A stretch of DNA of 64,000 bases from the NCBI GenBank assembly GCA_020049775.1, contig JAGVLO010000015.1, forward strand, positions 62,001 through 126,000, in the 5' to 3' direction. Both the position numbers and the translations under genes were made by a program. The first letter of the stretch is position 1. Each line of letters opens with the position of its first letter. The DNA is from Alphaproteobacteria bacterium (GTDB lineage Bacteria > Pseudomonadota > Alphaproteobacteria > Rickettsiales > SXRF01). Shown in pieces: positions 52,928 to 62,102 of the stretch. Below the pieces are notes generated by a model that was given only the letters and a program-made list of their open reading frames with translations, was not told the DNA's origin and did no database searches.

Positions 52928-53203
52928 CTATCCTATCCCGTGTGATGTTAACGTCGCCATTTCAGGGGTTTTCTGCACATGCAGCTGGCCAGAAACCTGA
53001 TCCGTATCAGCATGCATACTTGGAAAAGCCTTCAATTGCGACGCACCCATGCTGTTTATGGCAGCAATAAGTTCATCAATGCTCGTTTGATTCATGTGTG
53101 TTGACGCATCATGCAAGGCCGAGGCGGCCATCCTGCTAATACCATCACCTGATGTGGCCCCCGGTAAAGCAACTGCAGATGCTTCTCTAAGAGAAACAAC
53201 CAT
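52928..53203 (-). CDS. Small hypothetical protein
   Basis: 91 residues, unrecognised. GGGGAGTGTAGG is a good ribosome site. Ala/Ser-rich N-terminus (SRMAASALHDASTHM) and helix SIDELIAAINSMGASQLKAF. Likely first gene of a pair with 52576-52914. Confidence 0.5.
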   Translation of the reverse strand: MVVSLREASAVALPGATSGDGISRMAASALHDASTHMNQTSIDELIAAINSMGASQLKAFPSMHADTDQVSGQLHVQKTPEMATLTSHGIG

Positions 53204-53555
53204 ACCTACACTCCCCGTTTAAGTCTCAAATTCAGTAAAATTAAAAAATTTAATTCTAACTAAGTATTGTACTGAGACTATGTTTAGGCGCTGCTTTTTT
53301 AGTATTCTTATAATCAGGCTGTATTGAGTAAGTTCGCTTGCTTTTATTCAGCACCTTACTGCACCATATACTAGTTAGATAAAAAATTCAAGTACATGTA
53401 GCGCAGCAACTGGTTAACAAATATTGACATTTTTTGCTGATATTGATTGTTAGAACAAAGCGCGAAATCATTAAGCTACACAGCTTAGATATTTGAAAAC
53501 AATATTTTTTGCACAGGATGTGGCAAAAATATTAACATCATTGCGTAAACGCGTA
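53204..53555. other. AT-rich intergenic region
   Basis: 352 bases between the small protein and the pseudopilin, both leftward. A short stem TAAGCT-ACAC-AGCTTA lies at about 53473-53488; TTGACA at about 53423 has no convincing -10. No gene or RNA seen. Confidence 0.5.
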
Positions 53556-54356
53556 CTAACGCATTCCTATATCAGCGGGTGAAAACATCTGTGACCTTAC
53601 CCAGTAACGCAGCACATCATCAAAGCCGCTGGCGCTTGTGGAGGTGCTTCCTGTGTGTGGACGCATGATGAATGTGTTATCGAAGGTGGTGGCGGTGGCA
53701 TTCTCATCGCAGTAGCAATTCATTAGCTCATCGGTATTGCTGGAACGCGCCGACTTTCGCAGTCCGCTAAGCTGGAATGCGCCGTGGCCGTTGTTGCCGT
53801 GGCTGATAATCACAGCGATGGCGTTGGTTGTTCGGTTTTCGCTTGCACCGTCCAGCACCGTGATGCTGCCGATGGTCGTGCTGGTGACCGGATAGGTGGT
53901 GAAGGCCAGCGGTGCCGTCATGCGTATATCCACTACATAGCTGAAGCGCCCACCCCACGGGTCGAACATATAATCATCCGGCAGGCCGAGGCTTTTTATA
54001 GGCACAACACCGCCCGCAGTATTTTCCGTGTCGTTGAAATTAGCGGCGGGGTCGCCGTCACACGTGCCGTTATTAGCAGCTTCTAGGCCGAATTTTTCTT
54101 CAGATAATGCAATCGCTCCATCTGCCGGACATGGCAGCCGGTTATTCTGGCGGCGGAATTTTATCATCGCCTCCTGAATGGCATCCATCTTGGATTGCAA
54201 CTCACTTTGCTTGCTGCGGCGTAATTCCTGCGTCATGATAGCAAGCACGCCACCCGCTACCAGCGAAAGCACCAGAAGCACGATGGAAAGCTCCAGTAGC
54301 GTGAAGCCGCGCTCATGTGTGGCTGCTGTTTTTCTGTAATGTCTGAATAAACGCAT
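53556..54356 (-). CDS. Pseudopilin-like protein with prepilin N-terminus
   Basis: 266 residues from ATG 54356; a GTG at 54422 would add 22 residues. Short basic leader ending RG, then FTLLELSIVLLVLSLVAGGV: a class III signal with Gly before the hydrophobic helix and Glu at position 5 of the mature chain. The rest is a soluble domain with the WGGRFSYVVDIR region. It may belong to a type II secretion or type IV pilus-like system; no such genes are adjacent. Confidence 0.72.
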   Translation of the reverse strand: MRLFRHYRKTAATHERGFTLLELSIVLLVLSLVAGGVLAIMTQELRRSKQSELQSKMDAIQEAMIKFRRQNNRLPCPADGAIALSEEKFGLEAANNGTCDGDPAANFNDTENTAGGVVPIKSLGLPDDYMFDPWGGRFSYVVDIRMTAPLAFTTYPVTSTTIGSITVLDGASENRTTNAIAVIISHGNNGHGAFQLSGLRKSARSSNTDELMNCYCDENATATTFDNTFIMRPHTGSTSTSASGFDDVLRYWVRSQMFSPADIGMR

Positions 54357-56476: not shown

Positions 56477-56639
56477 GGTCTTGCTCCCTGCGGTTTTTTA
56501 CTTTTTTTATAGGTCCAATGTACCCCAAATTACTTAATAATATTGATATAATGCCTAAAATGCTGTGTTTTTGGCGTAGAAAATAGCAAAAAAATAGTAT
56601 AACATGCTGACCTATTTAAAAACTTCAGGATACGGAATT

Positions 56640-58805
56640 ATGTCCTTTACCAAAAAAACAGTGGCTGACTGGCAAAAGCTGGCGGAAAAAGATATCGGCA
56701 AGGACAAGGCGGGAAACCCCGTTCCACTCGATTCCCTAACGTGGCACACGCCGGAAGGTTTTGACATAAAGCCCGTATATACTGCTGCTGATTTAGAGAA
56801 CCTCGAATATATCGACACCCTCCCTGGCTTTGCGCCTTACGCTCGTGGACCGCGCGCCACTATGTACACGGTACGTCCGTGGACGGTGCGGCAATATGCG
56901 GGCTTTTCCACTGCCGAGGAATCCAACGCATTCTACAAACGCAACCTTGCAGCAGGGCAAAAAGGCCTTTCTGTAGCGTTCGACCTTGCTACGCACCGTG
57001 GCTACGATTCCGACCACCCGCGCGTGGTGGGCGATGTCGGCAAGGCGGGCGTTGCGATTGATTCTATCGAGGACATGAAAATCCTGTTCGACAGCATTCC
57101 GCTGAACGAAATGAGCGTGTCGATGACCATGAACGGCGCTGTGCTGCCGATTCTGGCGAATTATATTGTGGCTGGCCTTGAACAGGGCGTGAAGCTGGAA
57201 GAACTTTCCGGCACTATCCAGAACGACATTCTCAAAGAGTTCATGGTGCGTAACACCTATATTTACCCACCGGAACCGAGCATGCGCATTGTCGCCGATA
57301 TTATTGAGTACACGGCAAAGAACATGCCCAAGTTCAATTCCATTTCCATCTCCGGCTACCACATGCACGAAGCGGGCGCGACAGCCGTGCAGGAACTCGC
57401 CTACACCATCGCCGACGGTGACGAATATGTAAAAGCCGCGCTTGGCAAAGGCCTGAACGTGGATGACTTTGCGCCCCGCCTGTCGTTTTTCTTTGCCATC
57501 GGCATGAATTTTTTCATGGAGATTGCCAAGCTGCGCGCCGCGCGCCTGCTATGGGCGAAGACCATGGCGAAGTATAATCCCAAGCACCCTATGTCCTCTG
57601 CTTTGCGCACGCATTGCCAGACAAGCGGTGTGTCGCTTACGGAAAAAGACCCCTACAATAACGTCGTGCGCACCACTATCGAAGCCATGGCTGCCGTGCT
57701 TGGCGGCACGCAGTCGCTGCACACCAACGCGCTGGACGAAGCTATTGCGCTGCCCACCGATTTTTCGGCGCGCATCGCACGCAACACGCAGCTCATCATC
57801 CAGCATGAAAGCGGTATCACCAAAGTGATCGATCCGCTGGGCGGTAGCTATTACATTGAAGCCCTCACCGATAGCCTTGTAAAACACGCGGAAGCGCTGA
57901 TTGCAGAAGTCAACGAAGTCGGCGGCATGACCAAAGCTATCGAAGCCGGTATCCCCAAGCAGAAAATCGAGGAATCCGCCGCCCGCCGTCAGGCACGTGT
58001 TGACCGCGGGGAAGACGTGATTGTCGGTGTGAACAAATACCAGCTCAAAAAAGAAGACGCGATAGACATTCTCGATGTCGATAACGCCAAGGTGCGTGAA
58101 TCGCAGCTAAAACGCCTCGGCGACGTGCGTAAAAAGCGCGACGAAAAATCCTGCCAGCTGGCGCTGGAGGCGTTGACTAAAGCCGCTGCGGATAAAACGG
58201 GCAACCTGCTGGAGCTGGCGGTGGAAGCCGTGAAGCACCGCGCGACCGTGGGTGAAATTTCCAATGCGCTGGAAAAAGTCTATGGCCGCTATAACGCCGA
58301 GGTTAGGACTATTTCAGGAGTTTACGGCGCTGTGTATGATGCCGACGACAGCCTGAAACCTATCCGTGAAAAAGTGGCAAAATTTGCTGAAACCGAGGGC
58401 CGCCGCCCTCGCCTGCTCGTTGCCAAAATGGGTCAGGACGGTCACGACCGTGGTGCAAAAGTCATCGCCACCGCCTTTGCCGATATGGGTTTTGACGTGG
58501 ACGTCGGCTCGCTGTTCGCCACGCCCGATGAAGTGGCGCGTCAGGCCGTGGAAAATGACGTGCATCTTGTCGGTGTATCATCCCACGCAGCGGGGCATAA
58601 AACACTTGTGCCGCAGCTTATCGAAGCGCTTGGCAGGGCTGGCCGCAAAGATATTCTGGTGGTGTGCGGTGGCGTTATCCCCGCGCAGGATTATGATTAT
58701 CTCTACAAGTCAGGCGTTGCCGAAATCTTCGGCCCCGGCACCAACATTCCCGATGCCGCTGCCAAAGTGTTGGCGCTGGTGGAAAAGAAGCGGAAAGCTG
58801 CGTGA
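56640..58805 (+). CDS. scpA: Methylmalonyl-CoA mutase, single-chain
   Basis: 721 residues from ATG 56640 ([11 protein letters not shown]); an upstream ATG at 56604 would add 12 residues. N-terminal TIM-barrel with [32 protein letters not shown] and [18 protein letters not shown]-terminal B12 domain with the cobalt-binding [16 protein letters not shown] (about 595-610). It interconverts methylmalonyl- and succinyl-CoA. Its last bases overlap the start of the next gene, and its 3' end is duplicated at 59490-59613. Confidence 0.97.
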
Positions 58806-59470
58806 TAAAAAATGCGCTGGTTCTTCTGCTAATATATTTTGTTGGCATCGCAGTCTATAATTATAGCCTTAATGAAACAAATATGCCGCCACTTAGTGAC
58901 GGTGACCTCATTTTTCAGACAACGAATGTGCCGCACTCATTTGCGCTTGCCCTTGCCAGCGGCAGCCTTTATCTCCACACTGGTATTATCAAGCAAAGCG
59001 GTAGCGGCACTGTGGTGATACATGCTGCGCAGACGGTGGTAGAAACGCCGTTGTCCGATTGGATTGCTCAGGGTGCTTTGAAACGGTTTTCCGTCTATCG
59101 TTATAAAGGTCTTGGCCGCGAACATACTTCCTACATACTGGAAGCGCTTAAACCCTATTACGGCAGGATGTATGACCATTATTTTTCATTTGATAACCAC
59201 GAGATTTATTCCAGCGAACTAGCATATCTTGCCTTTAAACAGGCGAATATCCCACTGGGAAAAGTCGAAAAAATTGGTTCACTCACCGTCAATAACAGCT
59301 TTGTGACTAACCTTATCGAGCAGCGCTGGCAGAATTACCCCGCATGCGCGGGCAAAGACTACACATTCGATCAATGTTACGAGGTGATGATGTCGCAGGA
59401 AATTATAACTGCTGCTTCGATTGCGGATGATCCTAACGTAGAGCTCATTTTTACCAACTACCCTTTTTAG
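58802..59470 (+). CDS. Permuted NlpC/P60 (YiiX-like) protein, catalytic Cys replaced by Ser
   Basis: 222 residues from GTG 58802, overlapping the scpA stop. N-terminal membrane anchor or signal ([18 protein letters not shown]), then the YiiX/YaeF-type papain-like fold: [10 protein letters not shown], His59 in LYLHTGIIK, and the motif IYSSELAYL where active members have YCSEL. The Ser at residue 137 stands at the position of the nucleophile, so it is probably a dead enzyme. Closely related to 60361-61023; both end IFTNYPF. Confidence 0.85.
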
Positions 59471-59489
59471 TGGCTTATTTCATTGCCCT

Positions 59490-59613
59490 CGCGCGGAATT
59501 ATGATTATTTATATAAAACAGGTGTTGCCGAAATCTTCGGCCCCGGAACAAACATCCCCGATGCCGCCGCCAAGGTGCTGGCACTGGTAGAAAAGAAGCG
59601 GAAGGCAGCGTGA
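59490..59613 (+). pseudogene. Duplicated 3' fragment of scpA
   Basis: 124 bases match the end of scpA (58682-58805) with 18 differences and no gaps, ending with the same TGA. It encodes the mutase C-terminus [20 protein letters not shown] onward but has no start region, so it is a remnant of the tandem duplication. Confidence 0.9.
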
Positions 59614-59617
59614 GTTA

Positions 59618-60358
59618 ATGAATGATTCACTGATAATTACAAATAAATCAAAATCATTTAAAGTGGCATTTGCTCTTGGGATGGAGCAGTTATTAAAATT
59701 TGAAGATATAATCAAGCCAGTTGGTCAGTACAACGCGATTGTTTGGCTTACCGATGATAGTAAGGTAACTTTAAATTCCATAAAGCAAATAGAAAATATT
59801 ACACTTAATAAATCCCGCCAAATAAAATCAATATGCTTCAGTGGAAACGACTACAAATCAAATAAAAACATATCTGTTAGTTTTGAAAGTAGAATGGGCT
59901 ATCGCTTTTTATCTGAGACGGTAAGTTACACAATTAAAGATACAGATGAGAATGTAATTCTTTTATCAAATAAGCTAGAAAGTTTAATTGCTGATTTAAA
60001 CCAGTGGTACGGATTTTTAGCATTCACAGATTTTGAAGTCCTTTTTTTTAAAGGGTTTATTTTTACTGTTTGCGCACTAGCTATAGCAATTTTTGTTGGT
60101 ACAACATTGGGCTATTTTACATATCATAAAAAAGACATCTCTTCATCAAATTACGGCGCGCAAATTTTTGGAGCTTTTGTTCTTCTTGTAGTTATGGTGA
60201 TATTTACTGATAGATGTAAGAGCAGTATTTTTCCTAAAGGCGTTTTCTTAATTGGTCCTGGTGTTAAAAAATTTAATCTCAATAAAAATATACACAGAGG
60301 TATAATCACAATATTAACCACAATAATTTTAGGTCTATTAGTTAATTACATATCTTAG
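59618..60358 (+). CDS. AT-rich foreign membrane protein inserted in the duplication
   Basis: 246 residues, unrecognised. Strikingly AT-rich (about 30% G+C) with AT-ending codons, unlike every neighbour. Residues about 1-130 are soluble (SKSFKVAFALGMEQLLKFED, QWYGFLAFTDFEVLF) and about 145-245 contain three to four membrane helices (FIFTVCALAIAIFVGTTLGY, GAFVLLVVMVIF, ITILTTIILGLLVN). It begins 4 bases after the scpA fragment and ends 2 bases before the second hydrolase copy, so it was inserted exactly at that junction. Confidence 0.75.
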   Translation: MNDSLIITNKSKSFKVAFALGMEQLLKFEDIIKPVGQYNAIVWLTDDSKVTLNSIKQIENITLNKSRQIKSICFSGNDYKSNKNISVSFESRMGYRFLSETVSYTIKDTDENVILLSNKLESLIADLNQWYGFLAFTDFEVLFFKGFIFTVCALAIAIFVGTTLGYFTYHKKDISSSNYGAQIFGAFVLLVVMVIFTDRCKSSIFPKGVFLIGPGVKKFNLNKNIHRGIITILTTIILGLLVNYIS

Positions 60359-60360
60359 TT

Positions 60361-61023
60361 ATGCGCCTCTTCTTCGCCCTGCTGATTATCATCACTTCTT
60401 ACTCCGGCTATCTCTACACGCTGGATGAATCAAAGCTGCCGCCGCTCAAAAATGGCGACCTGATATTCCAGACCACCACCATGCCGGGTGCGATGGCGAT
60501 CGGGCTTGCCAGCCTCAGTCCTTATATTCATACCGGCATCATCAAAATAACGGACAAAGGGCCATCGGTGGTGCATGCCGCTGAAATTGTGCTGGAAACT
60601 CCATTGAGTGAATGGATACGCAGCGGCGCATTAAGCCGCTTTGCTGTTTTCCGCCACAAGACGCTCACCCCCGAACAGGCGGAAGATGTGCTGGAAGTGG
60701 CAAAGACCTATTACGGCAAGCCGTATGATCATTATTTTTCATTTGATAACGACAGCATCTATTGCAGCGAGCTGGAACATCTCGTGTTTAACGCCGTGGG
60801 CGTGCCTGTGGGCAAGGTAGAAAAAATCGGCTCACTCAATATCAATAACAGCTTTGTAAAAAAATTAATTGAACAACGCTGGCAGAAATATCCCGCCTGC
60901 GTGGGTAAGGGCTACACGTTTGAGGGCTGCTATGAAGTGATGATGAAGCAGGAACTGGTGACACCCGCCTCCATTGCGCGTGATACGAGTATGGAGCGTA
61001 TTTTTACTAACTATCCTTTTTAA
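60361..61023 (+). CDS. Permuted NlpC/P60 (YiiX-like) cysteine hydrolase, intact Cys
   Basis: 220 residues. Hydrophobic N-terminus (LFFALLIIITSYSGYLYT), [10 protein letters not shown], His57 in YIHTGIIK, and the nucleophile Cys135 in IYCSELEHL. These are the catalytic elements of YiiX/YaeF-type papain-like hydrolases, which act on amide bonds of envelope or lipid substrates. Paralogue of 58802-59470, created by tandem duplication. It is 2 bases after the AT-rich insert and is followed by a 21-base tandem repeat. Confidence 0.9.
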   Translation: MRLFFALLIIITSYSGYLYTLDESKLPPLKNGDLIFQTTTMPGAMAIGLASLSPYIHTGIIKITDKGPSVVHAAEIVLETPLSEWIRSGALSRFAVFRHKTLTPEQAEDVLEVAKTYYGKPYDHYFSFDNDSIYCSELEHLVFNAVGVPVGKVEKIGSLNINNSFVKKLIEQRWQKYPACVGKGYTFEGCYEVMMKQELVTPASIARDTSMERIFTNYPF

Positions 61024-61037
61024 CAGATTATTTCATT

Positions 61038-61079
61038 GCCGCTGCCTAGGGGGGCAATGCCGCTGCCTAGGGGGGCAAT
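61038..61079 (+). repeat. Two copies of a 21-base tandem repeat
   Basis: GCCGCTGCCTAGGGGGGCAAT occurs at 61038-61058 and 61059-61079, identical. Each unit begins GCC and ends GGCAAT, and ATTGCC with GGCAAT can form a short hairpin. It sits at the end of the duplicated unit. Confidence 0.9.
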
Positions 61080-61127
61080 TAAGGATAATAGCTTGCCAAC
61101 TGGGTGCGGTTGTGGTTTCAACAAACT

Positions 61128-62102
61128 ATGGATAATCCATTGCTACACTCCATTAAAAGAGGTGACCGCGCAGCCCTTGCGCGCGGCATCACGCTGATTG
61201 AGTCCACGCGTGAAGACCACCAGCGCGAAGCGCAGGCATTACTCACGGAAATGATGCCAAAAACGGGCCGTTCCGTCCGCATCGGCATAACGGGTGTGCC
61301 GGGTGTTGGCAAATCCACTTTTATAGAAAGCTTCGGCCAGCACGTCATTAATCAGGGCCACAAGGTAGCGGTGCTGGCGGTTGATCCCTCCAGTGTGCGC
61401 ACGGGCGGCTCTATCCTTGGTGATAAAACGCGCATGAGCCAACTTTCGCAGAATGAAAAAGCCTATATCCGCCCCTCACCTACCAGTGGTTCATTGGGTG
61501 GTGTGGCGCGCCGCACGCGTGAAGCCATGCTGCTTACCGAAGCGGCAGGTTACGACGTCGTGCTGGTGGAAACCGTCGGCGTTGGCCAGTCGGAAACGGA
61601 AGTGGCCGACATGGTGGACATGTTTGTGTTGCTATTGCTGCCCGGCAGCGGTGACGAACTACAGGGTATCAAAAAAGGTATTGTCGAGCTGGCGGATTTG
61701 CTGGTGGTCAATAAGGCCGACGGCGACCTGATAGTGCAGGCAAAGCGCGTACGCTCGGATTATTCGGCGGCGATACGCATGCTGCATCCCGCAAATGCTG
61801 GCGGTTGGCAGCCGAAGGTCATTACCTGCTCTGCGCTCAATAATCAGGGCATTGACGAAGTGTGGCAGGCCATCGGTGAATATTCGCAGGCCATGAAAGC
61901 TTCCGGCCAATGGGAAAAGAAACGCCACCAGCAGGCCAAGGCATGGATGTGGAAAGAAATCCACGAAACATTGCTTTCGCGTTTTGAAAAACACCCCAAA
62001 ATCGCAAACCGCATCCGCGAACTTGAGGAACAGGTTTCCGCAAGCAAACTATCCCCCGCTGATGCGGCACACACACTTATCGAATATTACCTGAATGGCT
62101 GA
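61128..62102 (+). CDS. meaB: Methylmalonyl-CoA mutase-associated GTPase MeaB
   Basis: 324 residues from ATG 61128; GTG 61104 would add 8 residues. P-loop [15 protein letters not shown], Walker B-like [30 protein letters not shown] and VNKADGD mark the G3E-type GTPase. MeaB protects and loads B12 in the mutase. Its closeness to scpA fits this function. It overlaps the next gene by 8 bases. Confidence 0.95.

Follow-up and report, generated by a model that had tools for sequence, protein, structure and literature searches.

Gene organization of the mcm-meaB interval

The window, a stretch of 64,000 nucleotides from an Alphaproteobacteria bacterium of the order Rickettsiales, is part of contig C7 (283 kb) of a 2.5-Mb genome that is rated 100% complete and 0.05% contaminated. 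Towards its end the genes and fragments mcm, hyd1, T2, an AT-rich gene, hyd2 and meaB follow each other in this order, all on the plus strand (Table 1). The genome contains no second complete mcm gene. The 3' end of mcm (T1) is, however, repeated as T2, so that a first unit, consisting of T1 and hyd1, can be compared with a second unit, consisting of T2, the AT-rich gene and hyd2. In unit 2 the AT-rich gene starts 4 nt after the stop codon of T2 and ends 2 nt before the start of hyd2. The initial annotation had placed a gene of 246 residues between a mutase fragment and a hydrolase copy, and this is indeed the arrangement found. In unit 1 the stop codon of mcm and the start codon of hyd1 overlap (58802-58805), and the AT-rich gene is consequently absent there. 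It is also single-copy in its own genome.

Table 1. Features of the mcm-meaB interval, numbered from the first letter of the window.
Feature	Position	Strand	Remarks
Methylmalonyl-CoA mutase gene mcm	56604-58805	+	Pfam MM_CoA_mutase 9e-239 and B12-binding
T1, 3' end of mcm	58679-58805	+	repeat partner of T2
hyd1, YiiX-type permuted papain-like hydrolase (Peptidase_C92)	58802-59470	+	Pfam PF05708 1e-16
T2, second copy of the 3' end of mcm (127 nt)	59487-59613	+	42 codons including stop; repeat, 85% identical to T1
AGTTA, left member of a possible 5-nt direct repeat	59613-59617	+	not significant
AT-rich gene, probably acquired	59618-60358	+	246 aa, ATG to TAG, intact
AGTTA, right member of a possible 5-nt direct repeat	60357-60361	+	not significant
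hyd2, intact YiiX-type hydrolase	60361-61023	+	Pfam PF05708 3e-21; YiiX structure 2if6 3e-25
meaB, mutase-associated GTPase	61104-62102	+	Pfam MeaB 8e-116

The spacing between mcm and meaB differs within the family: no gene separates them in G003, about 2 kb lie between them in G010 and about 3.8 kb in G009. In the congener G005, mcm is followed by a small secreted-protein gene and a hydrolase gene, and meaB is found on another contig. Because the interval is variable across the family, the gain of a gene at this site is not unusual. The small gene of G005 (L011, G005:C182, reverse strand after mcm) is a different one, encoding about 104 aa with a signal-like N-terminus, and lies between mcm and the hydrolase gene. 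Between hyd2 and meaB of the window, two tandem 21-nt copies of CATTGCCGCTGCCTAGGGGGG were observed (61034-61075).

Base composition and ends of the AT-rich gene

The AT-rich gene has a G+C content of 30.1% (GC3 24.7%), in agreement with the value of about 30% given in the initial annotation. The mean of 741-nt stretches of the window is 50.5% (SD 4.2), which places the gene 4.8 SD below it, and all stretches of the window with a G+C content of at most 36% overlap the gene, making it the lowest in the window. The neighboring genes have G+C contents of 55.0% (mcm), 44.8% (hyd1), 49.3% (hyd2) and 54.9% (meaB). A native gene that evolves fast may likewise have a low G+C content, and this counts against inferring a foreign origin from composition by itself. 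A second AT-rich dip (about 39% G+C) is present at 53000-53750, between a small gene and a pilin-like gene.

An abrupt change in composition might be expected from an error of assembly or binning. Against such an artefact stand the length of the contig and the completeness and low contamination of the genome, as well as the intact reading frames on both sides; moreover, T1 and T2 are 15% different, so that identical repeats have not been collapsed. We regard an artefact as extremely improbable.

Analysis of the ends of the gene revealed no inverted repeats longer than 4 nt. A 5-nt direct repeat, the word AGTTA, was present at both edges, and a shared word of at least 5 nt occurred in about 27% of shuffled flank pairs. 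Since a word that long is common in shuffled flank pairs, AGTTA is no evidence of a target duplication and was rejected as such. This agrees with the earlier statement that the termini carry no clear terminal repeats. No recombinase was recognized among the open reading frames around the gene. Promoter and terminator scans, which report consensus matches only, yielded only a small number of promoters; terminator-like sites were somewhat in excess, with no evident relation to the other findings.

These observations bear on a single-gene insertion into unit 2 after the units had formed, through a short-lived mobile element or by illegitimate recombination, with AGTTA as the target duplication. 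The gene fits exactly between T2 and hyd2, AGTTA is found at both edges and no gene is present at the corresponding point of unit 1, whereas the word is not significant, neither a transposase nor an inverted repeat accompanies the gene, and its spacing to both neighbors is as tight as that of an operon member. The insertion model of the initial annotation is thus possible and not demonstrated; we consider it a tentative explanation, albeit the most serious competitor of the reading preferred below. If it were correct, T2 and hyd2 would have been joined directly before the insertion (TGAGTTATG).

Coding constraint on the mcm remnant

A comparison of T1 with T2 over 124 bases showed 19 differences. 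Fifteen of them are synonymous and four change an amino acid, three of the latter within the first four codons of T2, next to the junction. For an unused fragment diverging in place about 10 amino-acid changes would be expected, and four or fewer were obtained in only 0.03% of simulations (P=0.0003); when the first four codons were left out, a choice made post hoc, the observed pattern was rarer than 1 in 20,000 simulations. T2 as a decaying in-place duplicate was rejected on these grounds. Because its changes relative to T1 are almost only synonymous, we conclude that T2 evolved within a functioning mcm up to a recent time.

An ordinary in-place tandem duplication of the mcm tail and the hydrolase gene, followed by decay of the mcm fragment, would account for the same order of parts in both units and for the same 3' flank (TTATTTCATTGCC) behind both hydrolase genes. 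It would also account for T1 and T2 being mutually closest (19 differences), the congener G005 being 31 and 37 differences away and other family members also farther. The constraint on T2 contradicts this explanation, as does the identity of only 60% between the two hydrolases, and we judge it to be quite improbable. Unit 2 probably originates from a diverged lineage, or else from a complete second mcm copy of which most has been deleted; the data do not separate these two origins. The case for unit 1 as an empty-site control, as initially suggested, is weakened: the gene is absent from it, but the control is imperfect, as the constraint on T2 indicates that the units are probably not a simple in-place duplication.

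A GTG codon overlapping the hyd1 stop codon (TAGTG) opens a frame of 47 aa that runs through T2 (59470-59613), from which a short peptide might be translated.

The two hydrolases

The catalytic Cys of YiiX-type hydrolases was assigned according to PMC3142127 and by alignment with 2if6. It is retained in hyd2 (YCSEL), whereas hyd1 carries a Ser in its place (YSSEL), as seen in the alignment with hyd2 and homologs. In addition, hyd1 lies on a longer branch and is the faster-evolving copy. Its product is probably inactive or altered, and could possibly be a pseudo-enzyme maintained beside the active paralog hyd2. As hyd1 evolves faster and is devoid of the catalytic Cys, unit 1 is the degenerate-looking copy and not the more ancestral-looking one, and its earlier designation as the ancestral unit is unsupported.

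Predicted architecture of the 246-residue protein

The protein is predicted to consist of an N-terminal domain (about residues 1-128, predicted confidently with a pLDDT of 86) and three transmembrane (TM) helices at about residues 141-159, 179-197 and 224-246. The sequence FPKGVFLIGPG (residues 205-215) is located in the loop between TM2 and TM3. According to the positive-inside rule, both the N-terminal domain and this loop would be cytoplasmic. The soluble-plus-membrane layout proposed initially is hence confirmed by prediction; its description as unlike anything adjacent applies to the immediate neighbors, but elsewhere three relatives have the same layout (see below). No nuclease or methylase domain was detected in the protein. 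Foldseek searches with the whole model and with the well-predicted N-terminal domain gave no reliable fold (best E 0.003, TM scores of at most about 0.4 against solved structures). A Pfam match to Arteri_GL (E 4e-4, below the family cut-off) covered the TM region only and was dismissed as a hydrophobicity match.

Distribution of the gene and identification of relatives

The AT-rich gene had no match in 15 other genomes of its family, and no hit was obtained in G005, G018 and G019. Neither the 263 genomes of the order nor the 398 of the phylum contained a credible match; weak matches in G120, G059, G599, G311 and G500 turned out on inspection to be BamA, Lgt or chance TM matches. Single-sequence searches of genome contigs, viral contigs, plasmids and phages with the 246-residue protein found nothing. 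Likewise, no model in Pfam, NCBIfam, PADLOC or PHROGs fits the protein or names its family; with the PADLOC models no match was obtained at E values up to 5.

Distant relatives were found with a DNA pattern for the FPKxxFxIGxG stretch and then with a variant of this pattern. The first pattern led to one full-length relative (L045) in a Poribacteria MAG, which aligns with the 246-residue protein at 2e-8 in a pairwise blastp comparison (21% identity in the aligned part). The variant pattern revealed two further relatives in viral contigs, L071 (L069 is the same contig) and L070. The gene, for which a search against other genomes had been suggested, is thus without credible match in the family, order and phylum sets, but is no isolated orphan. 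Further motif scans of the 398 genomes and the viral contigs gave no additional relatives. PADLOC models matched neither the L070 nor the L071 relative at a threshold of 0.01.

A profile built from L045, L071 and L070 only, with the window gene left out, recovered the window gene at E=1.2e-11 and had no other credible match in the 398 genomes. As the relatives had been picked by the motif, the motif was masked: the masked score was 20.2 bits, whereas the highest score among 499 local shuffles was 15.1. With the N-terminal domain by itself the score was weak (4.8 bits), and homology to the relatives therefore rests mostly on the membrane half. All four members have an N-terminal domain of about 130 residues, a W-Y preceding TM1 and three TM segments, and in each the motif FPxxVFxIGxG lies in a K/R-rich loop between TM2 and TM3. 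By these sequence comparisons, the window gene is a member of a sparse, unnamed three-TM FPxxVFxIGxG family together with L045, L071 and L070.

Genomic neighborhoods of the relatives

The L045 relative is located between res and mod of a type III restriction-modification (R-M) locus, 9 nt from res. In this locus ResIII matches PADLOC REase_III at 1e-19, and the N6_N4 methylase matches MTase_III at 4e-103. Between the relative and mod there are two small genes of 157 and 113 aa (L045:1445-2252), neither of which has a PADLOC match. The L071 relative belongs to a temperate phage. It is flanked on one side by the integrase region and on the other by an S24-type repressor gene, with which it is arranged tail to tail, and it lies upstream of primase and terminase genes. 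The integrase is adjoined by a gene for a membrane-like protein of 463 aa (L071:1065-2456) that has no PADLOC match and is a possible further cargo gene. For the L070 relative the setting is a P2-like prophage, in which it is found on the side of the portal gene (Q) that faces away from the terminase. ParE is encoded in its vicinity, as is an ATPase with a match to PADLOC PDC-S06 of 1e-264. P2-like phages carry diverse anti-phage systems as cargo beside gpQ (PMC9122126). Since some 7.9 kb separate the L070 relative from the portal gene and the boundary with the host is close by, its place in the classical hotspot itself is uncertain. A defence or prophage setting was accordingly found for all three relatives, a small sample in which two members come from a viral collection and which is biased towards prophages. 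The window copy has no defence or phage gene beside it.

These neighborhoods, together with the surroundings of the window gene, also bear on whether the gene could work together with the hydrolase in one operon, perhaps by anchoring or modulating a lipid amidase of the YiiX type, having been inherited with hyd2 and playing no role against phages. Such a function would suit the tight spacing to hyd2 and the fact that, of the two hydrolases, it is hyd2 that keeps its catalytic Cys. On the other hand, the gene is missing beside the hydrolase homologs in G005, G019, G023 and G018 and in unit 1, none of the three relatives lies beside a recognizable C92 hydrolase in the DNA read, and its composition is sharply unlike that of hyd2. 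We consider this explanation unlikely.

Proposed origin and function

The initial proposal of a foreign AT-rich gene is supported by the composition, by the absence from the other sampled genomes of the family and order, and by the occurrence of relatives both in prophages and in a different phylum. The gene was probably acquired horizontally, presumably from a foreign donor. Because its relatives sit in an R-M locus and in prophages, it is read as probable anti-phage cargo, a function suggested by the context of the three loci. Our preferred explanation, to which we assign slightly less than an even chance, is that the gene is a laterally acquired, probably anti-phage, membrane cargo gene that arrived with, or was inserted into, a segment composed of T2, the gene and hyd2.

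The product would be a small protein of the inner membrane, in which a cytoplasmic N-terminal domain is followed by three TM segments, and the conserved loop with FPxxVFxIGxG is positively charged and likewise cytoplasmic. Such a membrane-anchored protein might act in superinfection exclusion or abortive infection: a molecule produced in the course of infection could be sensed or bound by the cytoplasmic domain, with the membrane part blocking entry or disturbing the membrane. The segment would stem from an mcm operon that had kept its function until recently, either in a diverged lineage or as a lost full-length second copy, and would have been joined behind hyd1 by recombination; this order of events is the one we infer.

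A more far-reaching version, which we hold to be rather doubtful, is that the gene is a free-standing chromosomal member of an undescribed membrane-anchored anti-phage family that also travels in prophages and type III R-M loci, and that recombination brought it in along with part of a diverged mcm operon, the mcm tail being the scar. If true, this would name a family missed by current defence and phage libraries and provide a searchable signature, FPxxVFxIGxG between TM2 and TM3. The mcm tail would further illustrate that a fragment evolved under coding constraint can reveal a recombination otherwise taken for a simple tandem duplication.

Comparison with known systems

Both hyd1 and hyd2 belong to the YiiX/YaeF permuted papain-like hydrolases (Peptidase_C92; PMC3142127), from which hyd1 differs by the loss of the catalytic Cys and to which the product of the AT-rich gene is unrelated. 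START/SRPBCC helix-grip domains were recurrent top Foldseek matches of the N-terminal domain, at E values of at least 0.003 and within the low TM scores given above, so that no fold is assigned. Type III R-M loci resemble the present case in that the L045 relative lies between res and mod, whereas no R-M genes adjoin the window gene and its protein is devoid of nuclease and methylase domains. Superinfection-exclusion and single-gene prophage defence proteins (e.g. the P2 old/tin region and other P2 hotspot cargo, PMC9122126) differ from the window gene in that the latter has no sequence or profile match to PADLOC or PHROGs models and sits in a metabolic operon, its activity being putative. The likeness is that these small proteins are accessory genes of prophages, and two of the relatives are found in such regions, one of them sharing its region with PDC-S06 and ParE.
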